Positions 685 through 34,220 of a stretch of 38,478 nucleotides of DNA are shown in pieces. The translations under genes were made by a program, and so were the position numbers. How positions within the stretch are numbered: the stretch's first letter is position 1; each line of letters begins with the position of its first letter. The notes beneath the pieces are model-generated. The model saw only the letters and a program-made list of their open reading frames with translations, searched no databases and was not told the DNA's origin. This DNA comes from a virus: IMG/VR virus record IMGVR_UViG_3300009163_000081, positions 1 to 38,478 of that record; one strand, given 5' to 3'.

Positions 685-1803
685 CTACACAAGACTTACA
701 TTCTCTCCAAAGGCTAACCCCGCAAGTCCTGCGGTTAAAATGTTTTTGGCGGCATTGATGTCACGGTCATGGGTGGTTTTGCATTCAGGGCAATCCCAAT
801 GGCGCGTATCAAGTGCCAAAAAGTTTAAAGTATATCCACAGTTGGAACAACGCTTAGAGCTTGGGAAAAACTGGTCTATCTTAGAGATAGTCCGACCCGC
901 CCAATCTGCTTTGTATTCTAACTGGTTAATAAAGTTACCCCAACTAGCGTCAGCGATATGCTTGGCTAGTTTAGGATTTCTGATTAGATTTTTAATGCGA
1001 AGCGATTCTACACAAACAACTTGGTTTTCGTTAATAAGTTTGCGAGATAACTTGTGTAAGTTATCCAATCGACAATCAGAGATTTTAGCATGAATACGAG
1101 CCACCTTAAGCTTAGCCTTAGCACGATTAGCCGACCCGAGTTTTTTACGGCTCAAGGCGCGTTGTGCTTTGGCAAGTTTGGTAGCGTATTTAGCCATCAG
1201 ACGGGGATTGTCAATCTTGATACCGCTATCGGTAACAAACAGGTGTTTAATGCCAACGTCAATACCGATATTGATATCAGACTTTGGCAAGATTTGATTT
1301 TCAAATTCGCACAGGCACGATACAAAGTAACGTCCTGCACAGTCTTTAGAAATAGTAATAGTGCTTGGTTCGCTTGGCAGTTGTCTAGACCAACGAATAT
1401 CAAGCGGTTCTTTGCTTTTGGCAATGTAGATTTTACCGTCCGTGTATCTAAACGCACTTTTGGTAAATTCAGCCGATTGCCGATGAGTTTTCTTTTTGAA
1501 TGTTGGATATTTGGCACGACCTTCAAAGAAGTTCTTAAAAGCCGTTTGTTGGTGTCTAAGAGCTTGTTGTGTGGGAACACAAGATACATCATTCAAAAAA
1601 GCAAATTCTGGCTGTTTTTTAAGCTCAGTGAGTTTAGCACTTGCTTGAATATAGCCTATTTTTTGCTTGCTTTGGTAATACTCATCAGTACGCCAACGCA
1701 AAATGTGATTATAGACAAACCGCACACAGCCGAAAGTTTGAGCAAGCAGTTTAGCTTGTTCATCAGTCGGGTAAAAGCGGAATTTATAAGCACGATATTT
1801 CAT
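685..1803 (-). CDS. tnpB: TnpB RNA-guided nuclease (IS200/IS605 OrfB family)
   Basis: This 372-residue protein has the standard TnpB layout. The N-terminal OrfB helix-turn-helix region begins KYRAYKFRFYPTDEQ. A RuvC-like core follows, with Asp182 in INIGIDVGIKHLF, Glu266 in VCVESLRIKNL and Asp348 in DRDINAAKNIL. A four-cysteine zinc finger (Cys319, Cys322, Cys338, Cys341) lies between the last two acidic residues. All catalytic residues are present and the length is typical, so the protein looks intact. TnpB proteins are omega-RNA-guided DNA nucleases, ancestral to Cas12, that help retain their element. No tnpA is adjacent. Just upstream on its own strand is a hairpin (1808-1830), and no strong ribosome site precedes the ATG. 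The gene is antisense to the phage early operon, so leftward transcription needs its own promoter. Confidence 0.92.
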   Translation of the reverse strand: MKYRAYKFRFYPTDEQAKLLAQTFGCVRFVYNHILRWRTDEYYQSKQKIGYIQASAKLTELKKQPEFAFLNDVSCVPTQQALRHQQTAFKNFFEGRAKYPTFKKKTHRQSAEFTKSAFRYTDGKIYIAKSKEPLDIRWSRQLPSEPSTITISKDCAGRYFVSCLCEFENQILPKSDINIGIDVGIKHLFVTDSGIKIDNPRLMAKYATKLAKAQRALSRKKLGSANRAKAKLKVARIHAKISDCRLDNLHKLSRKLINENQVVCVESLRIKNLIRNPKLAKHIADASWGNFINQLEYKADWAGRTISKIDQFFPSSKRCSNCGYTLNFLALDTRHWDCPECKTTHDRDINAAKNILTAGLAGLAFGENVSLV

Positions 1804-2224: not shown

Positions 2225-2800
2225 ATGGCACTAGAAAACAACATCGAACAATCAGTCGCTAAGAACTGGTCAGTATTATTCCAAAACTTCCGCAAGGTCG
2301 TTACGTGGATGAAGTCTGGACTAGACAGCCCAGAAGCGTTAGCGATGCCAGAAGATTACGCCATCACTAAACTATTTAAAGCTGCTAAAGCCCATGATGC
2401 GTCGGTCACCGCAGTCACTAAGCAGGTCTCCATGCTTACCGCTCAGAACTCTGAGCTACAAGAAGGCTTATCTGTTACCCATCAAAAAATCGCTCAACTA
2501 CTACAGCAAGTTGATGTACTGACGACAGAATTGCAAACCCTACGAACTACGCTATCAGAACCTGCAGAGCCAAAGTCTACTAAAAAAGGCAAAGCTAAAG
2601 CAGAACCAGAAGTAGCGCAAGTTGCAGAACCTGCACCAGAACCTGCACCAGAACCTGCACCAGAACCTGCACCAGCAGCGCCTGTTGCACAAACGCCAGA
2701 CGAAGTACAGCTGACAGCTGCCGCAGTAGATGCAGGTGAGTTATCCGAAGATGCCCTTGCACAAGTCAGCGAACTACTGGGGAGCATGGAAGCGCTGTAA
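2225..2800 (+). CDS. Hypothetical coiled-coil protein with Pro-Ala-Pro-Glu tail
   Basis: This 191-residue protein starts at an ATG preceded by GAAGGAG at 2211-2217. Residues about 55-115 form a long Gln/Leu/Thr coiled coil (TKQVSMLTAQNSELQEGLSV and similar). A Lys-rich segment, KSTKKGKAKAE, follows, then a low-complexity (E-P-A-P)n linker encoded by four exact 12-base repeats, and finally a short acidic helical C-terminus. No family is recognised. The layout (coiled coil, extended linker, acidic helix) suggests a scaffolding or protein-protein adaptor role, which is inference only. It is the first gene behind the palindrome-covered promoter and is followed by an intrinsic terminator, so it is probably transcribed in excess over the polymerase. 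Confidence 0.75.
   Translation: MALENNIEQSVAKNWSVLFQNFRKVVTWMKSGLDSPEALAMPEDYAITKLFKAAKAHDASVTAVTKQVSMLTAQNSELQEGLSVTHQKIAQLLQQVDVLTTELQTLRTTLSEPAEPKSTKKGKAKAEPEVAQVAEPAPEPAPEPAPEPAPAAPVAQTPDEVQLTAAAVDAGELSEDALAQVSELLGSMEAL
2627..2674 (+). repeat. Four tandem 12-base repeats (GAACCTGCACCA)
   Basis: Four exact, contiguous copies of GAACCTGCACCA encode the repeated peptide EPAP in the linker of the coiled-coil protein. The unit is a multiple of three, so copy-number change by slippage would lengthen or shorten the linker without a frameshift. Confidence 0.9.
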
Positions 2801-2808
2801 AGCAAACA

Positions 2809-2837
2809 GGTAGCATCACACCGGTGCTACCCTTTTT
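2809..2837 (+). terminator. Intrinsic terminator or attenuator upstream of DNA polymerase
   Basis: The stem is GGTAGCA (2809-2815) with TGCTACC (2825-2831), a 9-base loop, followed by C and five T. It ends one base before the GGAGGT ribosome site of the polymerase gene. No separate promoter is visible between them, so polymerase expression probably depends on read-through. Confidence 0.65.
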
Positions 2838-2846
2838 GGAGGTACT

Positions 2847-5800
2847 ATGACACGTATAGTAATAGACTTTGAAACATACTACGACAAAGACTACTCACTT
2901 AAAAAAATGACGATGGAACAATACATCCGCGACTCACGCTTTGAGTGTATAGGACTGTCTATTAAAGTTGGGGGTCAACCGACCCAATTCTTTCGCGCAG
3001 AAACTTGGATTCCAGAACTTAAACAGTTATTAATTGCCCACAAAGACCATATTATCGTTTCCCATAATGCGATGTTTGATATGGGTATTTTAGGTATCCG
3101 CTATGGTATCCACCCACGCAATTTGGGAGATACTGTGGCTATGAGCGCTATTGTTGGGCTCGACAGATGTGCTGGACGCGCTAACCTTGATGGCTTATCA
3201 GCATATCTACGCACTATCGGTTATAACATACCCACCAAAGGTGATTATGTGCAGAATATGGAGGGTGTTAGAATCGCGGATATGAGTCCTACAGATTGGG
3301 CACAATATGGTGAATACTGTAAGACAGATAGTGATATTTGTGCTGCCATGTACGATATCATGCTTCCATTCATGCCGGCAGGTGAGATGGAGATGATATC
3401 TACTACGCTTAAAATGTTCACCAATCCAGCCATCAAATTAGACACAGACCTTTTGTTAGATTACGAACAACGCCTTATACAAAAGCGTGAAGATTTACTC
3501 TCTGGCGTAGCACGACGCGTCGGTTTGTCTGGCGCAGATGAATTAGCACCACACCTTCGCTCGACTGCGAAGTTCGCAAAGTTATTAGAATCAGTTGGTG
3601 TCACCGTACCGATGAAGTATAGCGAGAAGCAGGATAAGATGATACCAGCTGTCGCCAAGACAGACCATGAGTTTCTGGAGTTGGTGGCATCTGAAGATGA
3701 ACTGACTAGTGCGCTATGTGAGGCACGTCTTGGCGCTGCGAGTAACCTTGAGATGACACGCTGCAAACGCTTCATTGATATTTCTAATCGTGGTTTGATG
3801 CCAATACCCCTGCGGTATGCGGCAGCTCATACAATGCGTTACGGAGGGGCAGACAAATTGAACTGTTTTTCTGCGGGGCATGAATTACTTACGCCGGATG
3901 GATGGGTTGCTGTAGAACACTATACAGTAGGAACACCCATAGCGCAATGGCACGAGGATGCTACTATTAGTTTTGATCACGACCCATCATGGTTAGCTAG
4001 GCCATACAAAGGATTAATGTACCATATAGAGACCCCAACAGTTTCTCTAGTTGTTACACCAGACCATCGGATAAGCAGTGTAAAACAGGGCAAGCTAGAA
4101 AATGGGTTCACTATAAAAACCGCTGAACAAATAGCTAACTGTAGTGGGCTTGATTACATACCGCTATGCGGAGTTGTAGATACCCCAGAACATCCTTATA
4201 CGGACGCGCAAATACGATATCTAGTGGCTTTGCAGGCTGATGGCAGTATCGTAAAGAACCGCCATTTGTTTGGGTTCAGACGGGAGCGTAAAATAATTCG
4301 CATGAGTGAGCTGTTGGTAGAGTTGGGATTTAAGTTCACTCGTGTTCTACAGGCTAATGGTACTACTTTGTTTACTGTGACCCCGCCACCAGAGTTCGCT
4401 GTGGGGAATAAAAATTTTGGTAGTTGGATATTAAACCTAAGTGCCCGACAGTTAGGTTTATTTGTAGATGAGTTACGCTATTGGGATGGCAATAGCAATA
4501 GTAACAATGGTTCTTTGGAATACAACTCTACGGTGATGGATAATGTGTTATGGGTCGATACCGCTATGCGTCTATGCGGTCGGTTCTCTGGCGTCTATGG
4601 TTATAACTATAGCAATGGTACAGCCGATAAAGATACCCCCTATTGTTGGAGATTGTATGAGCGAACCAGTAGGTATGGCTCTATAGATACTAAACGTCAC
4701 GTAACTGCACAGGAGTTTGATGGTATTGTATATTGTCCGAAGGTGGATAGCGACCGTATATTAATAAGACACAATAATAAAATATGTGTAGTTCATCAGT
4801 GCCAGAATCTGCCAAAACGTAAGGGCGACAAGTCACTACGGCGTTCTATGACCGCCCCTAATGACCATGTTCTAATAGCCACGGATTCGAGCCAGATCGA
4901 GTGCTTAACCGGAGATAGTCTAGTGCTAACGGATACTGGATTGAAGCGGATAGATAACATTTCTATTGCAGATTTGTTGTGGGACGGTGTAGAATGGGTA
5001 CACCATGATGGAGTAATATACAAAGGAGTAAAAGATGTTATCACTTACGCTGGAATTACCGGAACACCTAACCACATCGTCTACACCAGAGATGGTAGGA
5101 AACTCACGCTCGATGAAGCTGCGGCTTCGGGAGAGGAACTCGCTGTTGGTGAGAGAGAGGGGAAACCAGTACGGACGTTGGACAGTGTTGGAGAGACCTA
5201 TACCCCTAATGGGGGTGCAGAGGGTGTGGACGCGATGCCAATGTGGGGAAGAGAAACTCACACCAATATCAGATCTGAAGTCGGGGAAGTCAACGAGCTG
5301 CAAAGCGTGTGGGCGCCGGAAGTATTTGGATATACCGGAGCTACCTGCCAACCAGCTACAAGGGCGGTACAATGCACTAGTGGAACGGTGCAAGGCAAAC
5401 AAGTTCAGCAGTCGCACCTACAAGAATGTGGAAAATATGTTCGACAACTGCGAGCACTTTGTTCGATACGTCTGGGAAAACTTCCCCCGCGAAGATTATC
5501 GGAATCTAGAAATAGACCGGATAGATACGAAGGGTCATTACGCACCCGGCAATATAAGGCTTGTGACCAGAGAGGAGAACGCCCAAACACGAGGTATGAA
5601 CGTAACTGTCACATACAAGGGTCAGGTCATAAGCGCCTCAAAGTTTGCACGAGATTATGTAAGAAACTTTGGCTCCGATTGGGTTCGGGAACAAATACGC
5701 AAGGGACTTACCGCCGAGCAAATATTAAATTTAGCGCAGGAAAGAAAGCGTCTGTATTTGGTGTTCGCAGGGGAGAAGTTTTGTATAGAATCGTTCGCGA

Positions 5801-7295
5801 GAAAGTTCGGCGCGAACTGCGGAGTGTCTCACATATCAAGGAAACTACGCAGCGCTATACGGAACGGGGAAACCCTATTGTCGGTACTGTTGCAGTATAC
5901 GATATTATCAACGCAGGAAGCCGAAACCGTTTCTGCTGTAATGGAATAATTGTTAGTAACTGTAGAGTGCTCGCGTACGCTGCGCAGGAGCTGCCCCTAC
6001 TTAACATCTTCTTGAACAAGGATGACCCGTATAGCGATATGGCGTCTAATATTTACGGCTTGCCTTACGATGTTATATATCGTGAGGCTAAGATTGAGCG
6101 TACTAAAGAAGGTATCGTGCGCCGCAACGTGGGGAAAACCACTGAACTTGGTTGTATAGCAGAAGGTACTGAGGTACTGACTGACCGCGGCTGGGTGCAG
6201 ATACAGAATATACAATCTAACGATTTGTTATGGGATGGTGATGAGTTTGTGCCTCATGATGGGTTACTCGATAGGGGATTCAAACCGTGCGCTATATTCA
6301 ATAATATTGCTTTGACCACAGACCACAAGATATATAATCATATTTCTGGTAGATGGTTTACTGTAGAGGAGATTTTATACTATACGGATTTAAGTTTGTT
6401 AGCCGACGTTATAGCAGACAGCTGCAATCAGTATAGCTTTCATGATATCCCATCGAAATACCGTAGCCACTTGGTAGAGGCGAGAAATAATAAACTAGGC
6501 ATTAACGATTTTATTACTCGGCCTATATTAAAAACCTACGATATCCTAAACGTCGGCACTAAAAATTGCTTCTATGTGCGCTCTATAAATAGGGGCAATG
6601 GTAGTTCTGTGCTGAAAGTCCACAACTGCGGATACGGCATGGGTGCAGATAAGTTTGAAGGTCAGCTAAAACTGGATGGTCTAACAGAAGCCGCCAGCAA
6701 TGCCAAGGCAATCGTACAAGCCTATCGCCGCGCCAGACCTAGTATTGTCCGGTTTTGGAAAACGTGCAGTGACGTACTTGATATCATGCTTGCAGGCGGT
6801 AAGGTATCGTTTGGTGGTCCGAACAATGACCTGTTTTTAGCAGATGGGTCAAGTGTATTCTGGGGCAAGCGGATACCGTCTGTGCGCCTGCCAAACGGCA
6901 CGTATATTTGGTATCAAAACTTACGCAAAGTACCGCGCCAAGAACCAGCCCAGTTTGGTGATGGTATGGAATTTGTGTATGACCAATTCAAAAGCAACCG
7001 ATTCGAAGTGAACCGAATCTATGGAGGTAAATTAACCGAAAACCTGATCCAAGCCCTAGCATTTGCGGTACTAAAATATCAAGCGTTACAGATAGTTGAT
7101 ATGGGCGTACCAGTGCACATGAACGTGCATGATGAATGGGTGAGCATTGTACCAAAATCAATGGCACATCATGCAGTCGCCGTACACGCCAAGGCGATGC
7201 GAACTGTACCAAACTACATCCCAGACGGGTTACTTGATATGGAACTCGATATGGGAAAAAATTATGCCGATACTACAACAATCGGTGGACTATAA
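2847..7295 (+). CDS. Family A DNA polymerase precursor with three inteins
   Basis: The 1482-residue precursor would splice to a mature enzyme of about 659 residues, close to T7-type polymerases. The N-terminus is a DEDD 3'-5' proofreading exonuclease: VIDFETYYD with Asp7 and Glu9, then SHNAMFDMGIL, then YCKTDSDICAAMYD. The polymerase motifs are all present: motif A TDSSQIE|CRVLA with Asp680, motif B RRNVGKTTELG|CGYGMG with Lys1097, and motif C NVHDEW with Asp1429 and Glu1430. The bars mark intein insertions. The third insertion is at ADKLN|CQNLPKR, the region equivalent to the conserved PNLQNIP segment. All three exteins resume at Cys. The enzyme replicates the phage genome. It has a GGAGGT ribosome site 3 bases from the ATG and an intrinsic terminator just upstream. 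Activity would require all three splicing events, because each intein disrupts the catalytic core. Confidence 0.95.
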   Translation: MTRIVIDFETYYDKDYSLKKMTMEQYIRDSRFECIGLSIKVGGQPTQFFRAETWIPELKQLLIAHKDHIIVSHNAMFDMGILGIRYGIHPRNLGDTVAMSAIVGLDRCAGRANLDGLSAYLRTIGYNIPTKGDYVQNMEGVRIADMSPTDWAQYGEYCKTDSDICAAMYDIMLPFMPAGEMEMISTTLKMFTNPAIKLDTDLLLDYEQRLIQKREDLLSGVARRVGLSGADELAPHLRSTAKFAKLLESVGVTVPMKYSEKQDKMIPAVAKTDHEFLELVASEDELTSALCEARLGAASNLEMTRCKRFIDISNRGLMPIPLRYAAAHTMRYGGADKLNCFSAGHELLTPDGWVAVEHYTVGTPIAQWHEDATISFDHDPSWLARPYKGLMYHIETPTVSLVVTPDHRISSVKQGKLENGFTIKTAEQIANCSGLDYIPLCGVVDTPEHPYTDAQIRYLVALQADGSIVKNRHLFGFRRERKIIRMSELLVELGFKFTRVLQANGTTLFTVTPPPEFAVGNKNFGSWILNLSARQLGLFVDELRYWDGNSNSNNGSLEYNSTVMDNVLWVDTAMRLCGRFSGVYGYNYSNGTADKDTPYCWRLYERTSRYGSIDTKRHVTAQEFDGIVYCPKVDSDRILIRHNNKICVVHQCQNLPKRKGDKSLRRSMTAPNDHVLIATDSSQIECLTGDSLVLTDTGLKRIDNISIADLLWDGVEWVHHDGVIYKGVKDVITYAGITGTPNHIVYTRDGRKLTLDEAAASGEELAVGEREGKPVRTLDSVGETYTPNGGAEGVDAMPMWGRETHTNIRSEVGEVNELQSVWAPEVFGYTGATCQPATRAVQCTSGTVQGKQVQQSHLQECGKYVRQLRALCSIRLGKLPPRRLSESRNRPDRYEGSLRTRQYKACDQRGERPNTRYERNCHIQGSGHKRLKVCTRLCKKLWLRLGSGTNTQGTYRRANIKFSAGKKASVFGVRRGEVLYRIVREKVRRELRSVSHIKETTQRYTERGNPIVGTVAVYDIINAGSRNRFCCNGIIVSNCRVLAYAAQELPLLNIFLNKDDPYSDMASNIYGLPYDVIYREAKIERTKEGIVRRNVGKTTELGCIAEGTEVLTDRGWVQIQNIQSNDLLWDGDEFVPHDGLLDRGFKPCAIFNNIALTTDHKIYNHISGRWFTVEEILYYTDLSLLADVIADSCNQYSFHDIPSKYRSHLVEARNNKLGINDFITRPILKTYDILNVGTKNCFYVRSINRGNGSSVLKVHNCGYGMGADKFEGQLKLDGLTEAASNAKAIVQAYRRARPSIVRFWKTCSDVLDIMLAGGKVSFGGPNNDLFLADGSSVFWGKRIPSVRLPNGTYIWYQNLRKVPRQEPAQFGDGMEFVYDQFKSNRFEVNRIYGGKLTENLIQALAFAVLKYQALQIVDMGVPVHMNVHDEWVSIVPKSMAHHAVAVHAKAMRTVPNYIPDGLLDMELDMGKNYADTTTIGGL
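3864..4799 (+). other. Intein 1 (312 residues) with LAGLIDADG homing endonuclease; ends in Gln
   Basis: Splicing block A is CFSAGHELLTPDGW. Block B includes LVVTPDHRISS. Two LAGLIDADG-type motifs (RYLVALQADGSI about 4214-4249 and LFVDELRYWDGN about 4457-4489) identify a dodecapeptide homing endonuclease. The C-terminal block ends ICVVHQ before Cys+1, so the last intein residue is Gln instead of the usual Asn. The insertion is at ADKLN|CQNLP of the polymerase. Inteins ending in Gln are uncommon but known. Splicing is therefore plausible but not certain. Confidence 0.9.
5022..5034 (+). promoter_or_regulatory. Ribosome binding site for the nested homing endonuclease gene
   Basis: AAAGGAG (5022-5028) lies 6 bases before the ATG at 5035. 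The whole leader, CAAAGGAGTAAAAGATG, is nearly identical to that of the HU-like gene, CAAAGGAGTAAAGATG at 1892-1907, differing by one A. In the polymerase frame the same bases encode Lys-Gly-Val-Lys-Asp-Val of the intein. This supports independent translation of the +1 frame. Confidence 0.7.
5035..5949 (+). CDS. HNH homing endonuclease nested out of frame inside intein 2
   Basis: This 304-codon gene runs in the +1 frame relative to the polymerase. From residue about 43 it has the plan of phage HNH/AP2-type homing endonucleases. First is GNQYGRWTVLERP and a zinc-ribbon-like region (RCQCGEE, then SCKACGRRK). Then comes YNALVERC and a core of LEIDRIDTKGHYAPGNIRLV followed by TREENAQTRG, the D-R-I-D-x-x-G-H-Y-x-P-x-N-x-R signature. 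After that are two DNA-binding repeats beginning VTYKGQVISASKFARDY and YLVFAGEKFCIESFARKF. The first 40 residues overlap intein block B and are probably non-functional leader. The stop at 5947-5949 falls 11 bases before the intein ends. A strong ribosome site precedes the ATG. Its likely role is to cut intein-less polymerase alleles and mobilise intein 2. Independent expression is inferred. Confidence 0.8.
   Translation: MLSLTLELPEHLTTSSTPEMVGNSRSMKLRLRERNSLLVRERGNQYGRWTVLERPIPLMGVQRVWTRCQCGEEKLTPISDLKSGKSTSCKACGRRKYLDIPELPANQLQGRYNALVERCKANKFSSRTYKNVENMFDNCEHFVRYVWENFPREDYRNLEIDRIDTKGHYAPGNIRLVTREENAQTRGMNVTVTYKGQVISASKFARDYVRNFGSDWVREQIRKGLTAEQILNLAQERKRLYLVFAGEKFCIESFARKFGANCGVSHISRKLRSAIRNGETLLSVLLQYTILSTQEAETVSAVME
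6153..6626 (+). other. Intein 3 (158-residue mini-intein) in polymerase motif B
   Basis: Block A is CIAEGTEVLTDRGWVQI, block B is IALTTDHKIYNH, block F is TYDILNVGTKNCFYV and the end is LKVHN before Cys+1, the canonical His-Asn/Cys junction. No endonuclease motif is present, so this is a mini-intein. It sits between Gly1102 and Cys1261 of the precursor, in RRNVGKTTELG|CGYGMG, which is the O-helix motif B of family A polymerases. It resembles intein 2 at its N-terminus (WDGDEFVPHDG and WDGVEWVHHDG), so the two are probably related. Confidence 0.92.
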
Positions 7296-11937: not shown

Positions 11938-12303
11938 ATGAAAAAAATTCTCGAAAGTGATGTTAAGAAAAAAGTAAAAGACTTACTTGATTGGGTCGGC
12001 AAGCACGTGCCTATCTACACGATGACCCCTGCCACATTTGGCTATGGTGAGTCGGGACACCCTGATAGACTGTTATATATCAGGGGGTATCTTCTTGGTA
12101 TCGAATGTAAACTTGATGGAAACACATCACTGCTGCGCCCAGAGCTAAAACCAACGCAGTCTGAGAAGGCACAAAAAATTATGTTGCGAAGGTTACGCGC
12201 CGCTGGTGGGTATCCTATCGTAGTGCACAAAGACAACCTAAAAGAATTCAAAGCCCTATTAGAAAGTATCATAGGCATGGACATAGATGTGAGAGTAGAA
12301 TAA
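11938..12303 (+). CDS. VRR-NUC-like nuclease
   Basis: This 121-residue protein has the compact PD-(D/E)XK plan of VRR-NUC domains: TPATFGYGESGHPDRLLYIRG supplies Gly-x-x-Asp, GYLLGIECKLDG supplies Glu-x-Lys, and LKPTQSEKAQKIMLRRLRAAG supplies the Gln-containing helix. VRR-NUC proteins are often fused or adjacent to SNF2/DEAD helicases and act as structure-specific or Holliday junction nucleases. Here the helicase gene follows with no gap (TAAATG), which supports a joint function. The ribosome site is weak (GGAT, 6 bases from ATG) and the gene begins just after a long stem-loop, so its translation may be controlled. Confidence 0.8.
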   Translation: MKKILESDVKKKVKDLLDWVGKHVPIYTMTPATFGYGESGHPDRLLYIRGYLLGIECKLDGNTSLLRPELKPTQSEKAQKIMLRRLRAAGGYPIVVHKDNLKEFKALLESIIGMDIDVRVE

Positions 12304-21987: not shown

Positions 21988-22425
21988 CTAGCACTCCATA
22001 TATGCTACATCAACAGCGCGTACCTTTACCGCACCATGAGTGTATTCTATATCAAATTCGTAACACCCGTTAGTGCCAAATTCTATAGCCGCTTCTATGC
22101 GCCCGTAGGCTAACATAGATAATTTGTTGTCTAGGATAAATACTGCACTGCCATCTTCGTTTATCTCATGTAACGGGTAAATAAGCTGCTTTCTTGGGAC
22201 TTCTCTAACGCGGATAACTGGTGCCACAGTATGCCCATTTGGGGGGCAGCCGCAAGGAACTGGAGCCTCTGCGGGCTCGCAAATTTCCTCATAAACAGGA
22301 CACCCACCCTGTGTTAAGATAAGGCGGTTAGGTTCTACGCTGCAAGGAGCACACGCACCTAAGTTAATTACTAACCGAGATGCGCCGTCGCAGAGTTGTA
22401 TTAGGGGTTTTCTGCACCTATTCAT
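21988..22425 (-). CDS. Cys-rich hypothetical protein (145 residues)
   Basis: The stop codon of the giant gene overlaps the ATG at 22425 (ATGAATAG), so translation is probably coupled; an in-frame ATG at 22446 lacks a ribosome site. The N-terminal half has about ten cysteines, in segments such as GACAPCSVEPN, GGCPVYEEICEP and PCGCPPNGH. The C-terminal half is beta-rich (IEAAIEFGTNGCYEFDIEYT). The cysteine pattern fits no zinc finger that I know and could form metal sites or disulfides in the virion. I do not recognise a family. It is the first gene after the giant protein. Confidence 0.65.
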   Translation of the reverse strand: MNRCRKPLIQLCDGASRLVINLGACAPCSVEPNRLILTQGGCPVYEEICEPAEAPVPCGCPPNGHTVAPVIRVREVPRKQLIYPLHEINEDGSAVFILDNKLSMLAYGRIEAAIEFGTNGCYEFDIEYTHGAVKVRAVDVAYMEC

Positions 22426-25400
22426 ATTTACTGTTTTCCTTGACATAGTTGCGGGTTAGTATATCAATATTTGCCTGTAGCGTCTGCATCCGTGTCGCAT
22501 CTGCTGGTATGCCTTTCGCACGTTGCTCATTATACGATTTGGCTTCGTCAGCAAACTGTTTCTCTAACGCTTTTCGTTCCTTAGTGAATTCTAACGTATT
22601 TTTGATAAATACGATATCTGCAGGCGTCGCACTTTCTTTAGTTAGTTTGTTAACTATCGTGTTAATCGCCTCGCCGGGCTTGTTATTAGGGTCGGTCATT
22701 TCGATGCCATACTGTGCAAGTTTATTATACGCCTTGTCCTGCACCCTGAAGGACAATATATCGGCTTGCAGCGATTGGTTGTCCACGAACGTACCAAAGC
22801 CTGTTAGAGCAGCAATAGGTGCCAGTGATCCTGCTTGTTCTGAGCGGCGCTCACGAGTTCCACCAGTAGCTTCACTTAGGTCTTGGAAGCTCGCGTCTAG
22901 GGCGCGCAAAGGTCCGTATCCGAAATACCCTTTCGATAGGTGTTGTATGGTTTCTGGGCGCATATCAACAGCACCGAACGTAACGTCGTACAACCCCGCA
23001 GCTAGGTCTCTATATCCCTGTGGCATTTTGAAATTACCTTGGGCACTATCTCGTTCACCGCGTGGTGTAGTAGCGCGTACAATTTCCGCACCTGTAAACG
23101 AGTTGCGGTTGGTGGCGAGTTCCACAATAGGTTTCAGCATTTGCGGAGTCATCGACAACACAGCCCAATCCCCCATTTCATCCCCGAACAGTTTGCTGTT
23201 GGCTAACTGGATAGGTAATGTATTCTCAACAACAATCGTTGTTAAGTCGCCCATAAGCCCTGCAGTATCGTTGGTGCCATTAGCCGTGCGATATAAACTC
23301 GCTGCCATTTGCCACATGGCACTTCCGATACCATGACCGATAGGCAAGTAGATAATACCATCGCCAAATGGGTTGGGCAGCGGTACGCCTTGTTTGAATG
23401 CTGTGCTAGGTAACTTGGCCAGTAAAGGAGTTCCATTACCGTTATCATCATCGTCATCATCCCCCAATAGGGAAGCAGCTAAGCCTAGCAAGGTTAAGTT
23501 GGTAGCCAGCAACAGCGCCATACTAGTTATATACTTCGGTATTATTACACCCGCTACTTTGCTCGCCTGTCCTTCGGTTTGGGTGAGACTGCGGATGTTA
23601 TTATACACGCCAGACATGGTAGCGCGGACGAACGGGAATAGCGCACCCATCTTGGTTTGCCAGTTTGGTGCCCGCATTGCATCGAAGCTGTCACGTACAC
23701 GGTTAGACGCTTCGGCTAAGTTAACCCCGTTGTCGATATAGGCCTGCGCCGACGCCAGAACTAGCGCAACCTGCGTGACCTCACTTAGTTGCATGAGCAT
23801 GAAGTCTAGCGCATCCTCTGACATATCCACTGCACTGCCAACTACCTCGGACTTGTTAGCTAGGCGTTTTAATCTGTTACCTGCAGCGTCTAATGCACGA
23901 GTTGATAGGGCTTTTTTATATTCCTCCATCATGTTTTGCTTTTCAACCAAGTCCGTTTGTAAGTGGATAGCCCCGCGGCCATACATCTCATGCAAGACAT
24001 ATTGAAGTTTAGTTTTCACCTCGCCTGTTGTGATGTAGCGATATATCTCACGGCGCTTACCGATTGTCATATTCTCAGCAACGTGCGCCGCATGACTCGC
24101 TATTAAGCTAGTTACGCTCACAGGATTGCCGTTCACGTCCACCACATCACGGAAGGCGGCAGTAGTAGCGCGTTCCCAAGTTTCGTTAAATACGTTAGTG
24201 AACAACTGGAACCGCGGGTTAAATCTGGTCATCAACTGCGAGGCAAAGCGCGTGTACGCACGGGTCTCCGCCATGATACCGCCTAGCAAACCATTACCAT
24301 CTGCGCTCTCGCCAAGCGTGATATTACGTCCGATCTGCTCTTGGATAACCGTATCGGTGAAATAATAGTTCATGCGAACATACTGCTGGTTACCATTGGC
24401 ATCTGCGATATGCCCCCACGCACTTATCGGGCGCACGTCTTTAAGATTCGCGGGTTCCTTACCTGGCAAATATCGCACTATGCCTGGGATTTCCCCCTTC
24501 TGCTCTAGCTCCTCCAATCGCTTAGTTGAGAACACCCCAGTCTGATTCACATTCTGCCAAGTACCTTCGTACAACAATTCAATTTCTCGGCGCAGTGGAG
24601 CCTGTGCAATGAGGCTACCGTGTTGACGCGTGAACAGTAGCAAGTTGGTGTACGCATCTGCAGCGGGTTCAGACGAACCATCACGACTATAGCGCGTTAC
24701 ATCGTCTTGCAGTCCAAGAGAACGCACTTGTCGCGTTGGATATTTACGTAACAAGTCTGCAAGCTCAGACGATTCTACGTTTTCCTCGTTTGTCGGATTC
24801 AAGTCAGCAGGAGTTAGTGACTTTCTGTATAACGCCACATACTTCTTAAACCCGATATCCTTGAAGCGTTTATAGTCACTAGCACGATACACACCAGACG
24901 CGCCGGCAAAGATAGTCGCACGGTTATATGCCTTAACAATATCTGCTGCCGTGCTATCTAAATCTGCTATATCATACATAGATTTTAGACGGTCAAATTC
25001 TTGCTGCGCTTGACGACGAGTGTAACCACCAGGCATTTTGACTTGCCCTTCTACTACGTTGCCGTTAGCGTCTGTATCCCCGTTCCACAAGACATTATTA
25101 TTGGCATCTAACACGAGTTTAGATCGAGCGTTGACGAGTTGTGATAGCTTGGTGGTTGCTTGTCTAATTTCATCCGCCCGTTTCGCGCTGTTGACGTTCA
25201 CCGTAGCTTGCTGCAACAGAGCAGGGTCTAGTACAAACGGTAGGCTATCTATCGTATCTTGGATATCGTCGATACGTTTGGTTAGGGCGTCCCGCTGGGC
25301 GATGGCAGAGTTTTTAGCCTTACTCGCCGCATTTTTGTCCTTCGCCGACGCATTAGGATTTGAAAGCACGGCATCCTGTGCTGCTATAGTTAGGTTATAT

Positions 25401-28400
25401 CTAGCGACTTCTATTTGCATCGCGGTCTGATGGGCAGTGAGTATCAAGTATTGATCCGCAACGGCTCGGTCAATCGGCGTTGTAGTTCCTTCTATTGTAC
25501 TGCGGATTACGAGTAGTTGGTTCTCAAGACGAGTTCGATTGCGCGCTGCTATATCACGGTCAGCCTGTGCCGCAGATACCTCTCTGGCCGAACTATTGGG
25601 GTCCGCAATAATGGCATCTTGCAACGCCATAATCTGCACGTAGGTGTCAATTTCGCCCTCTTTCGCACGGATATGTTCATTAAACCCCTCTGATAGCAGG
25701 TGATCTAACGTAGCGTAACGCCCAAAGTCCTCAGCAACTTCTTGGAAGCCTTTGCGATACTTGTAGCTTAATTTCTCCAACTTCTTAGTTATGGGTGTGA
25801 TGTTAGCTGTTGTCATCTCACGCACAGCCGCGTTAGCCATACCACCAATAGCAGATAGTATCATAGAGAAACGTGGTGAGTCAGACTCAACCCCAACAAC
25901 AGGTGCTCCGTACTTGATAAGTAGATTATCTAACGCGGGTTTCGCCCCGTTAGTGAGATAGATAATTGTACCAAGCGCCCCTTTAAGTTTACCTGGCAAT
26001 CTATCCCCGACGTTCCATGGCTTAGCTTGTAAGTCGTTTTCTAGCGCTTGTTGCAGTGATTTATCTGTCATAGTACGGAATAAGTTAGTTTCTGCGAAGA
26101 ATAAATCTTGCAACACAGCTTCATCTAATCCACCAACACGGGTCATATAATCGAACCACTGCGCTTGGTGCATCGCACTAGCCAGCTCGTTTACCTTGAA
26201 CTGCTGTGCCGCAGATGTGGTAGGAGTCGCTGGCACGGGGCTAGGGGGAGCAGGGGAGGCAGTGGAAGCCTGTGGTGTTACTGTAGCCGCTATAGCCGCT
26301 GCGGGTGTTTGTTGTGCCACAGGTGCTTGTAGCTGGGCTAGTGTGGGTTGTGTCGCGTTGCGGCGGCTAGTAAGTCTACGCGCGCGGCGGTTATTCTGTA
26401 CGATTAGTCCACCAGCCCCCAAACTACCTAATACACCTAATACAACACCCGCGATATCCCAACCACTCTCTGTAGTGACGTCCGGTGCCACTGTATCGAA
26501 GGCAGGTTTAGTTGATTGCTCTAGTGGCGTATGCGTACCTTGAGGTACGTTCATTGTCGAATGAGATACCCCGTTAATGGCAACTGGTTTAACCATAGCT
26601 ACTTGGCCACTTGGCTTGGTGCCCTCAATGGTTATCGGCGCAGTTGATATAGTCTCTGTAACTACCGGCTCTACCGCTGTCTGTGCTGATACTACTGCAC
26701 TCGCAGGAACAGGGGCTTGCGTAGTCGTTTTCGTTGCACGAGTCGGGGCACGCAGTTCAGTGGCGCGTTGAGTAGTTACCGCCGGCGCTTGTACGCCACG
26801 TGGACGATAGGGACTCGCTTTTGTCTCAGGTAGAACGTACACGTAACCGTCAAACACACTATCTAAATGAGCGTTGTAGAAACTGCTAGGTACGTTGATA
26901 CACCCGTTAGAAACACGGTTATCTGTAACGCTTTTAGAGGCAAGTTGCGCCGGGCGATTCTCTGCACCATTCGCTGTGTAAGTGCGGTGAATTGATACCG
27001 TGCCAACACTTGACTGCACAAGTTGCCCAGAGGAATCCGCTAGTGCCTGTACTGTGCCACCATACCCTTTAGCCGGTGTAGAAGCATATTTAATTGTGAA
27101 CTTGCCAGCAGGGGTCGCACCCGCTCGCGTGGTATCTGATATATTTTTACCAAACAACGCAGGAGTGGTAGCTAGTAGATTACCTTGTGCGTCGAACAGA
27201 TGAACTGCACCGCCTTTTTTGTCCGCGATGATATATGGTTTATTTGCGTTATCCCCATTTTGTTGGATATATTGACGGGCAGCGTTCGCGTCTTGGGTTA
27301 GCGCCGCGATTGGACTGGTTACGGTTATCGGGGTAGTCGCCGCGTACGCATCGTTGCTACTGGTCATACCCGTGTAGGCAGCGAGTGCCACAGCGACCAC
27401 GGCAACTGTATTTTTAATGGTGTTCCATATACGGTCAATGATACGCTTAATCCGACTATCCGCCTCTGCAGCTGCGATCAAAGGGTCGGTAGGTGCGTCA
27501 CGATTAACACGGTTTGAAATGACCTGCTCTACCAAGTCCTCAGCAGTAACTTCTTCCTCGTTTCGTGACTCTAGGAAGGCGTCTACTACATCGCGCTCTT
27601 GCGTAGTGATGACGTCTGCAACAGTTTTTTGTCCCACACTTTCGTCAGTGTTTCGGTTCGCTTTTTGGCGGTTCAGCTGTCTATCGGCAAAACCTTTATC
27701 CACGTATCCTGCTATTTTATCTAATGCGGAATTTTGCACGTCTGTTAGATTTTCTTGAGGTGAGGTTAGTAGGTCTGTTACATGGGCTACTAAATCAGCA
27801 CCTTTTAGTTCGCCGACACCTAAAGAAGCCTTTTCCTCAGAGGTAAGTAGCTTTCTTGCAAACGCGGCTTTAATTTGGTTGGGAGATACAGTGTCTAGTC
27901 GGGCTTCTGTAGGAGCTGCTGTGTCGCGCTGGTTATCTGATTCTTGCACAGTCTCAGTAGTATCGGGCACTGTGTCTACGGTTGTGGTTTCTAGAGACGC
28001 AGGTACATTTTCTGGCTCCGCAGTCGGTTCTGGCTCAGCTAAAGAACCTTGTTGTTCATTAGCGCTTAACTCATTTTTAAGGGCGCCTAACTTAGCATCT
28101 ACCTGCGCATTGCCTGTGTACGAATATTGCAGTGGAAGCAAACCTGTTTTTTGTGGCGCAAATGGACGCTCTTGGATAGGTCTATTTTCCATGCCAGGAC
28201 TAAAGTTCACCCATGAGTTTTGCCCCCGTGTCTCTGTAGTTAGCGCCCACGCAGCCCATGGTGAACGCATCATCGCCATGTGGTTCTTCCATGCAGCTTC
28301 TTCCCCTTTAGGACCAAACGCTACAGGCGATACAGTGTGGGCGTAGTAGTCATGCACGGCACGGAATAAATCGTTATATAGAAGTTCTTTGCCGGGCTCA

Positions 28401-31400
28401 TTGTAGCGCGCATCGCCTTCTTCTACGATACTACCATCAGCATCCAAAATCTTAATGCCCGATGGTTGTAGCAGTGGATGGCTAGAATAGTCTATGGAGG
28501 GGTCGCTACCAAAGGTGTCTGGCTCAGTTGCAAAAATTGACAGGTGATTATTGTCTAGGATATCGCGGCGCATCTCAGTAGAGCTGGCATACGGCTCGCC
28601 TTGCCCAGATAGCAAGTCTACCTTAATGGGCATAGATAAGAATTGTTCTTTCACTTCGTCGGCGAGTTCTGTATACGCACGCTGAACCAACGGATTAGAT
28701 AAGTCATCCATCGGCATAGCTTCATAGTCGTCGCGTATTTGTGTCTGTAGCTCGCGCTGCTGTGGAGTGATATCCTGTTGCACTGCAGGTTCAACGGGGC
28801 GACCTACTTGATCCTCAGCGATACGGCGAGCTGTTACTGATTCTGGGGCGGCACTCTGGGTACGAAGCCCACTTGCAATTTGGTTGTAGGGGATGCCGCC
28901 GAACTCTCCGTAAATGTAGAGACGTTGTGTTTTGCGTCGAACTCCGCTACTCTTTGTGCCAAGTAATTGTTGGGCGCGTTCTGCTGAGTTGAAGAACTCG
29001 TCAATTTGCTCGTTAGCTTTCTCACTTCCCACCTCTCCTACGTAGTAAAATTCTAAATATTGTTCGTTGGCGGTCAAGCCAACAAGTCCGCTTTCTGTCA
29101 TTATACGGTTAAGCTCCGCATCTGACAATGGCTCGTTTAGGGCGACTCGATAAACGGGAGTTGCAAACGAACCATCGCCAAACTCGTATCCCACTTCTGC
29201 ATCGGTATCTTCACGCACATGAACTTGCTGTTGGTTGAAATTGTCTGCAAATTTGGCTAATGCTGCCAGCAGTTCTGGAATAGCATCAGGGTTAGTCACC
29301 GTTACCGTTATACCAAGACTCGGTTCCTTATCCCCCTTATATAGCCCGTATGAGTCAACCGATGACAGTTCAACTCCATCAATCGCGCCAGTCAAGCGAG
29401 TAAGCATATCCTTCGCCACATGATGCAATAGAGTAGCAGCTTGTGCGTCACCTGCGTCTACGCGTTGTTGTAGGCGTCGTAGTCCTGGTATCGAATAGGT
29501 ACTGGCGCTTAATGTGATGTCGAACGCATCCGGCTCCATAGGTTGCGGTGGAGCCGATGGAACAGGTGCAGTCGGACGTGTAACATCTGCAGTGGCGCCA
29601 TCTAGTTGAATAGGGCCACTTGAATAGCGAGTTAATTCTTGCGCTGCTGGCGCTTCTGTTGTATCAGCTGTAGGAGCTGTTGTTTCTGCTGCTCGCTGCG
29701 TGGCAATACTCTCGATAGGACTAACGCGAGTTTTTTGCGTTGGGGCATTGGTTTTTGCTGTGCTGTCATAGTTTGGAATCCTATTATTGATAAACCCCTC
29801 GGTCATGTGTAGAGGTACAGTTGGGGTGAGTGTATCTACTGTCGATTTCTTATTATACGAGTTGAACGTGGACATCTTATCAATGCCCGTAATTTCTACT
29901 GACGGCAAGGCGCCATCGTCTGGTACGAATATAATTCGCCCATTCTCGCGTACTAAAGAGCCTATTGTCGACGTACCATTCTGTTCGCGTTTCACTGCTA
30001 ACTTATTATTGTCGATATAGGCGAACATTCTATCTGCTGTCGAACCAACATGAATATCGCTGGTGGCAACTTTACGGATACGCTCTTTCACCGCAGGGCT
30101 TTTGCTTGTTAGTTTGCGTTTGCCTGTACGCTGGCTAGGTGGCAACAGCAGCTGTTCCACTGCCCCTGTTATATCTGGTGATGACGTGGTAAGCGTATAC
30201 TCAGGGGTTACTTGAGTAACCGGACCCACATTTGCTGACTGAGTAGTAACCGATTGGTTGGAGTTGTTTACATAATCCTCCAAGATAGCAATTCTATCTG
30301 ATACATTAGGGTAATTTTCTACTAGTCCCGAAACTGCTGATTCCAGCAGGTCAACTTCGTTTAAGTCCCTGGCGTGTTCGTAGGCAAGCTCCAACGCATC
30401 TTGATAATCATTATATAGTTTGGTGCTCTCTAACATGGACGCCGCTTCAAGTACAGCTTCTTGCTGTAGCAAAATATCCCCAGAGGTTAAGGCGTCCAGT
30501 AAATCTGGAGAGGATAGAGCAATAGTTTCTAGTGCGTCTAGCGCGGCTTCTTCATTGCCGTCAAAGTAACTAGATAAAATGTCTAGGGCGGCAGTAAATT
30601 CTGCTTCTACATCAATAATAGGTGTTTGCAATGATTCAGTTAGAGCGGCATCGACTTCTTGCTCTGTGCTACTTGGCAGTAAAGAATTATATATACCTTC
30701 CCAAATAGCATCGGCTTGCCTGCCGGCTTGATTAGTTCGATTAGCGATCTGGTTGGTGGTTCTCGGCCCACGAGTATTAACGGAACGGAATCCTAAGTCA
30801 AATAGGCTAGAGGTAGTATTAACGTCCCCAACATGGATATCGCTATCGCCGTTGTAGGGGACAAAGAATATATTTTTCCCCCGCTGAACTAATATGCCGG
30901 TTTCCCCATTACGGGTAACTTCCATCCCTATTACACTAGGGTCGTTCAACGGGGTGTCTAGTTGAGATGAAAGGGGCTTAACTTTAGTAGTCTCAATAGG
31001 ACCTTGCGCTCGATAGGCATGGTCTACATCGGCTAAAATCTCGGCATTGGTAAGTCCATTTCGTACGCCCGAAACGAACGCATCCATCATGCGAGCTATT
31101 TTTTCCTGCGAAGTCGTAGCCTCAGCTCTGGCGAACAAAGGTTCCACCTGAGACAACAAGTCACTAGAATTAGAAGCCTGTCTAAGGCGCCGCTGCACTG
31201 GTGCACTAGGACGGGTAACAACAGCAGTGTTACCACTTGGTAGCGCAATAGTTTGTATCGGTCTAGTAGGCGGCGCTACAGTTGTGCCGTTAGCTAATGT
31301 TACACTCTGAGTTCCTTGGATAGGAGCGCTTGGGCGTTGAGCATTTGTGTTGCGTTTTGCCTGCGAAGTTGCAGCGCTTCCACTGCTAACTGGCGTTGGC

Positions 31401-34159: not shown

Positions 34160-34220
34160 CGCCCCATCCTGTAATAATAAATGAAATAATTTATATATTA
34201 CCATCTAAGCTATGGGGCGA
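34159..34220 (-). promoter_or_regulatory. RNA hairpin covering the start of the giant gene
   Basis: On the minus-strand transcript, the 9-base arm TCGCCCCAT (34220-34212) pairs perfectly with ATGGGGCGA (34167-34159), which contains the ribosome-site G run and the A of the AUG. Inside, 34201-34190 pairs with 34181-34171 (11 base pairs with one bulge) around an 8-base loop. The structure would hide the ribosome site and start codon of the giant protein. Confidence 0.55.

Follow-up and report, generated by a model that had tools for sequence, protein, structure and literature searches.

Canonical mobile inteins carry either a LAGLIDADG or an in-frame HNH endonuclease, as in cyanobacterial GyrB, and nearly all intein endonucleases described so far are in frame. 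The fractured genes with split inteins described by Dassa et al. in 2009 are said to hold the endonuclease as its own ORF between the intein halves, and work by Gorbalenya from 1998 reportedly deals with non-canonical inteins. Group I introns of the I-HmuI type bring a free-standing HNH ORF into phage polymerase genes within an insertion that removes itself. The closest published precedent for an out-of-frame HNH, there without an intein, is the ShiLan domain found in mycobacteriophage DNA methylases (Arsenault, Gosselin and Gogarten 2025, PMC11855218). ShiLan is an insertion that keeps its host phage gene open while an HNH ORF runs through it in a shifted frame, and homing has been supposed for it; it lacks intein splicing domains, is believed to be retained in the protein, and shows no detectable ribosome site (PMC11855218).

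The element described here is intein 2 of a family A DNA polymerase (PolA) gene in a window of 38,478 nucleotides, an IMG/VR viral record that makes up the whole stretch of DNA analysed. Unlike ShiLan, it has a conserved intein around the HNH gene, as well as an internal Shine-Dalgarno (SD) site and ATG. As in canonical mobile inteins, splicing halves flank the endonuclease at an equal topological position, although the canonical endonuclease is a domain read in the one frame, whereas that of intein 2 would be a separate protein in a shifted frame. In fractured genes, the host gene as well as its intein is broken up into separate genes, whereas the frame of intein 2 stays open across the endonuclease. 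In turn, group I introns are removed at the RNA level, and no intron signature was found in intein 2. We regard intein 2 as a protein-splicing element on which its mobility enzyme is overprinted as a separate gene in the +1 frame, and give this reading a probability of nearly nine in ten.

The preliminary description of this locus had called the arrangement undescribed. That was too strong, since ShiLan is a published out-of-frame HNH and since nested ORFs of the present kind had already been deposited unexplained. In phage APSE-1, the deposited P46, located inside DNA polymerase P45, is a part of the nested HNH ORF (3185-3853 of locus L012), and its annotated start at 3431 omits the first third of the HNH domain. 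Gp39 of Sodalis phage SO-1, inside gp38, is annotated as the product of a type I self-splicing (group I) intron but represents an intein's nested HNH (2333-3091 of locus L344); the nested ORF of LPSE1 was deposited as a hypothetical protein. The intein of Jerseyvirus Ent3 is annotated with splicing domains only, and the arrangement described here helps to explain such phage inteins seemingly devoid of an endonuclease. What stands of the original statement is that no account of the nested HNH as an intein architecture was found in the openly readable literature; full-text searches for overprinted or shifted-frame genes in inteins turned up the ShiLan papers alone. Single cases may have been noticed earlier. 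We rate the nested-HNH intein as a new and widespread type of mobile intein.

The polymerase gene and its three inteins

The polymerase ORF (2847-7295, plus strand, 1482 codons) matches Pfam DNA_pol_A_exo1 and DNA_pol_A, as well as PHROG 17 (E 1.9e-52), and has three inteins within it. Intein 1 (3870-4799, plus strand, boundaries taken from sequence) includes LAGLIDADG-like residues in the polymerase frame, resembles intein-containing RNR/PhoH/ThyX proteins, and ends with Gln instead of Asn (VVHQ/C). Since a Pfam search of intein 1 gave no match, the type of its endonuclease is only putative. Intein 3 (6153-6626, plus strand) is a mini-intein of 158 aa at PolA motif B that is matched by the intein-N profile (E 7e-19) and not by the HNH profile. 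Its site is shared with loci L003-L008 and others, and in many relatives the intein found there bears an HNH. With the Gln end and the in-frame LAGLIDADG-like residues of intein 1 taken into account, three kinds of intein would be present in one polymerase gene.

Intein 2 (4902-5960, plus strand, 353 aa) is inserted at PolA motif A (DSSQIE/C...SN/CRVLAY). It starts with Cys at 4902, includes the TxxH motif, and ends with Asn at 5960 followed by Cys, as an intein should. Its N-terminal splicing half (4902-5141, plus strand) comprises block A with Cys1 and block B with TPNH, and its C-terminal half (5880-5960, plus strand) comprises blocks F/G (VYDIINAG...IIVSN). Both the intein-N and the intein-C profiles match, the latter at 5886, and residues C1, L9, T10, G13, W27, D28, G29, G37, G42, T55, and H58 of the N-terminal half are invariant in 63 inteins. 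When the polymerase frame of intein 2 is modelled with AF2, residues 1-80 have pLDDT values of ~97 and residues 330-354 of 93-97 (~95), with values of 35-46 in the middle. The 43 top matches of this model in a Foldseek search of the PDB are all intein or intein-like Hint (HINT) structures, with gp41-1 as the best (E 4.6e-4). Judged by these models, intein 2 has complete splicing halves with a Hint fold and probably splices, and its middle appears to be disordered filler in the polymerase frame, for which Pfam and PHROG searches returned no endonuclease match. The preliminary description had placed both splicing halves in the polymerase frame with no endonuclease between them, and the profiles and models agree with it on both points.

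The HNH gene nested in intein 2

The nested ORF (5035-5949, plus strand, frame +1) encodes 304 aa plus TAA and lies wholly within intein 2, with its stop codon (5947-5949) inside the C-terminal splicing half. Its assignment as an HNH endonuclease, made originally from the sequence, is borne out by matches to the HNH families PHROG 374 (E 1.5e-21) and PHROG 3377 (E 1.8e-14); in Pfam, DUF7769 alone was found, below threshold. The AP2 label given to it earlier was seen solely in the names of some structural neighbours. In the AF2 model of the +1 protein, residues ~41-240 mostly have pLDDT values of 80-97; values are low for the ~40 residues before them, which are overprinted on sequence of the splicing domain. 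The well-conserved part likewise begins near residue 41, and the confident fold of the +1 frame falls exactly where the intein frame is modelled as disordered. The predicted viral structures in BFVD that are nearest to this model include annotated HNH endonucleases (best E 2e-12). In a fold search of the PDB, Gme HNH and Cas8-HNH matched weakly (Z about 2.8), so that clear fold matches are with predicted viral HNH models only, and sequence searches of solved structures with two alignments gave no match for either.

The conserved nuclease core (5161-5757, plus strand, alignments A1 and A6) is characterized by a zinc-binding-like CxC...CxxC pattern and by D161-R162...Y169...N173, the conserved residues being C68, C70, C89, C92, D161, R162, Y169, and N173. 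The Asp-Arg pair stands where the classical HNH has its first His, both here and in other nested members; R162 is invariant in 59 of them, as is the pair itself in all ten members of alignment A1. HNH catalysis is uncertain because of this replacement.

The start of the nested gene is located within the splicing domain (Y-K-G-V-K-D-V), where the Shine-Dalgarno sequence AAAGGAG is separated by a 6-nt spacer from ATG 5035 (5022-5037, plus strand). Its predicted anti-SD duplex energy of -8.2 kcal/mol equals that of the HU-like gene, in keeping with the likeness between the two sites noticed earlier, and the alternative starts TTG 5146 and GTG 5149 are weaker. The position of the SD and ATG is kept in relatives. 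The best start is an ATG about 38-42 codons ahead of the core in the +1 clade that includes the window, about 52 codons ahead in the +2 clade, and 9-14 codons ahead in a second +1 clade, with SD energies at the best candidates usually between -6 and -13 kcal/mol. An internal ATG with an SD energy of -6 kcal/mol or below is present in 59 of 68 loci, compared with 10.1 expected from shuffling the synonymous codons of the intein frame, although a part of this signal may reflect inheritance or amino-acid constraint, since mini-inteins lacking an HNH often retain the same start and SD motif. The enriched and conserved SD sites support an internal start, at which initiation would take place.

Selection on the two frames was assessed with 145 HNH sequences, non-redundant at 80%, for which the expected numbers of stops were obtained by shuffling synonymous HNH codons. 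Over 29,146 codons the intein frame lacks stops altogether, where 964.5 would be expected, whereas the third frame has 1795 against 1746.6 expected. Reshuffling the synonymous HNH codons of the window itself creates a mean of 10 stops in the polymerase frame, none of 300 shuffles being stop-free, and no alternative frame is open in any of 80 free-standing HNH homologs. A frame open by chance is rejected. Identity is higher in the HNH frame than in the intein frame in 22 of 22 independent pairs, and substitutions at HNH codon positions 1, 2, and 3 number 697, 521, and 1428, a pattern seen in both frame classes. These data, together with the stop counts, indicate that the HNH frame is under purifying selection, and that, where the two overlap, selection on the intein frame acts chiefly against stop codons. 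Thus, the earlier claim that selection keeps the polymerase frame free of stops holds, whereas purifying selection, which had been considered for both frames, is seen in the HNH frame.

Recurrence and origins of nested HNH genes

Profiles for intein-N and HNH were applied to loci fetched from phages, IMG/VR, and bacterial and archaeal genomes (one per species). The loci were chosen by similarity to the intein halves and HNHs of this kind, and the survey therefore says nothing on other intein families. It yielded 187 distinct inteins, from phages and prophages, with their halves in one open frame and a nested HNH, 126 of them with the HNH in the +1 frame and 61 in the +2 frame. The shifted frame, whose preservation in homologues had been named as decisive, is thus widely kept, and the in-frame endonuclease of canonical inteins is found in none of the 187; no ORF in the surveyed loci combines an HNH match with an intein-N match. 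The same survey held 28 inteins without an HNH and one (L248) that is interrupted.

When the two frames were used separately in tblastn searches, the same DNA was matched in Streptococcus phages Javan101, Javan104, Javan107, Javan113, and Javan255, in PhiSdyV1524, and in Vibrio phage 97.13. Reading of all frames revealed out-of-frame HNH ORFs in the polymerase inteins of Streptococcus, Gardnerella, EBPR, Vibrio, and Hamiltonella (APSE-1) phages, as well as of Pseudomonas, Shewanella, Caulobacter, Escherichia, and Salmonella phages. The nested HNH of the Jersey type is present in at least 166 phage records, nearly all from Enterobacteria phages, and a search of plasmids found one distant record. 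The host genes encode PolA, with insertions at motifs A and B and at a third site close to the C terminus, and helicases (SNF2, ResIII/DEAD, DnaB-like). Four loci (L039, L101, L212, and L227) have two nested-HNH inteins in one polymerase, with the +2 HNH at motif B and the +1 HNH at the third site. Two copies appear to be decaying while their intein frames remain open: one has its HNH frame broken by an internal stop (L003, 4140-4919), and the other has a large deletion that leaves about 50 HNH codons (L010, 4001-4504). Annotation pipelines miss both intein and HNH because DUF7769 stays below the Pfam threshold and the standard intein models Hint_2 and TIGR01445 catch few members.

A FastTree phylogeny of 149 HNH proteins, in which the long-branch sequence of L023 was left unplaced, puts the nested HNHs into three groups among free-standing HNHs. 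These groups are the +2 clade (17 sequences, support 100), the +1 clade with the window (42 sequences, support 99), and the second +1 clade (9 sequences, support 93). Mini-inteins are scattered over the poorly resolved intein tree, which fits repeated loss of the HNH, and parsimony on the tree of intein halves gives at least five changes of frame, with too few columns for firm counts.

The polymerase frame of the window is continuous, and in the sample a split of host gene and intein is seen in L248 alone (3001-3999). There, the ORF comprising the N-terminal parts of polymerase and intein ends at TAG 3253, overlapped by the HNH start at ATG 3242 (SD energy -10.3), and the HNH stop TGA 3878 in turn overlaps ATG 3877, which opens the ORF with the C-terminal parts. 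L248 resembles the fractured genes, with their split inteins, and seems to derive from a nested-HNH intein by splitting, a route to split inteins that the nested arrangement would offer.

We lean, with some reserve, towards adding intein-overprinted endonuclease genes to the in-frame and split forms as a third general architecture among mobile inteins. This proposal, to be taken as a whole, has four parts: the architecture would have arisen at least two or three times and in different frames; it would dominate the inteins of phage PolA genes; it could give way to split inteins accompanied by a free-standing endonuclease, L248 being an example; and overprinting would be possible because the protein of the overlapped frame, the filler, is always discarded.

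Proposed mechanism and alternatives

With both frames intact, the HNH frame under selection, stop codons absolutely avoided, internal starts enriched, and the arrangement recurrent, as computed above, we infer a scheme that joins splicing, translation from the internal start, and homing. Ribosomes translating the polymerase would read straight through intein 2, the splicing domain would be built from the two halves, and the intervening filler would leave with the intein. Translation by other ribosomes would begin at the SD and ATG within the N-terminal splicing domain and yield the HNH endonuclease as a free-standing protein, which ends just short of the intein's final residues. This enzyme most likely would cut intein-less polymerase alleles in co-infection, and repair would copy the intein in. 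The filler, being discarded, would be free to drift, with the lack of stop codons as the sole demand upon it.

An ordinary in-frame HNH intein, thrown out of frame by sequencing or assembly frameshifts or by recent frameshift mutations, would agree with the general rule for intein endonucleases, and the preliminary description had named such an artefact as a possible refutation. The region has the same sequence in an independent metagenomic assembly (IMG/VR 3300010885_033718), which differs solely by 4 SNPs at 12048-12083, and sequencing error is therefore excluded; the finding of out-of-frame HNHs in isolate phages and in bacterial genomes, together with the stop-free intein frame, makes any version of this explanation negligible. 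The annotation of gp38 and gp39 in phage SO-1 exemplifies another view, a group I intron with its HNH ORF, in which splicing would occur at the RNA level and the open polymerase frame would be incidental. Such introns typically bear HNH ORFs, yet conserved intein blocks, the intein fold, and the absolute avoidance of stops all speak against one here, as do searches for Rfam intron families, which gave no match in the window (E <= 1) or in 10 relatives (gathering threshold), and we consider an intron very improbable.

Programmed ribosomal frameshifting into the HNH frame, yielding a fusion of polymerase, N-terminal intein half, and HNH with no internal initiation, would likewise keep both frames. 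It is hard to reconcile with the excess of SD-preceded ATGs, with the stop codons that many members, the window among them, have in the HNH frame shortly before the start, and with the free HNH start of the split L248, and it is thus improbable. The nested protein could also be real and serve something other than intein homing, for example by cutting the genomes of competitor phages, with the intein merely a safe site. The nesting of the HNH clades among free-standing phage HNH genes would suit this idea, and competition between phage intron endonucleases is known from work cited in PMC10448857. Nevertheless, the three clades are each tied to inteins, several insertion sites are used, and scattered loss of the HNH has left mini-inteins, all of which is typical of a homing cycle; we view a role outside homing as unlikely, though deserving of thought. 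Under the preferred reading, an overprinted gene for the mobility enzyme, splicing and DNA cutting would be divided between two proteins made from the same bases, so that separate expression levels are possible. The locus would also represent an unusually clean natural case of overprinting, with one frame selected for function and the other, since its product is excised, chiefly for freedom from stops.

Two other features of the window can be mentioned. A TnpB/IS605 OrfB-like gene with a Cas12f1-like TNB domain (685-1803, minus strand) is located just upstream of the HU-like gene, and a single ORF of 3928 codons (22418-34204, minus strand) would, by its position, encode a very large virion-type protein.
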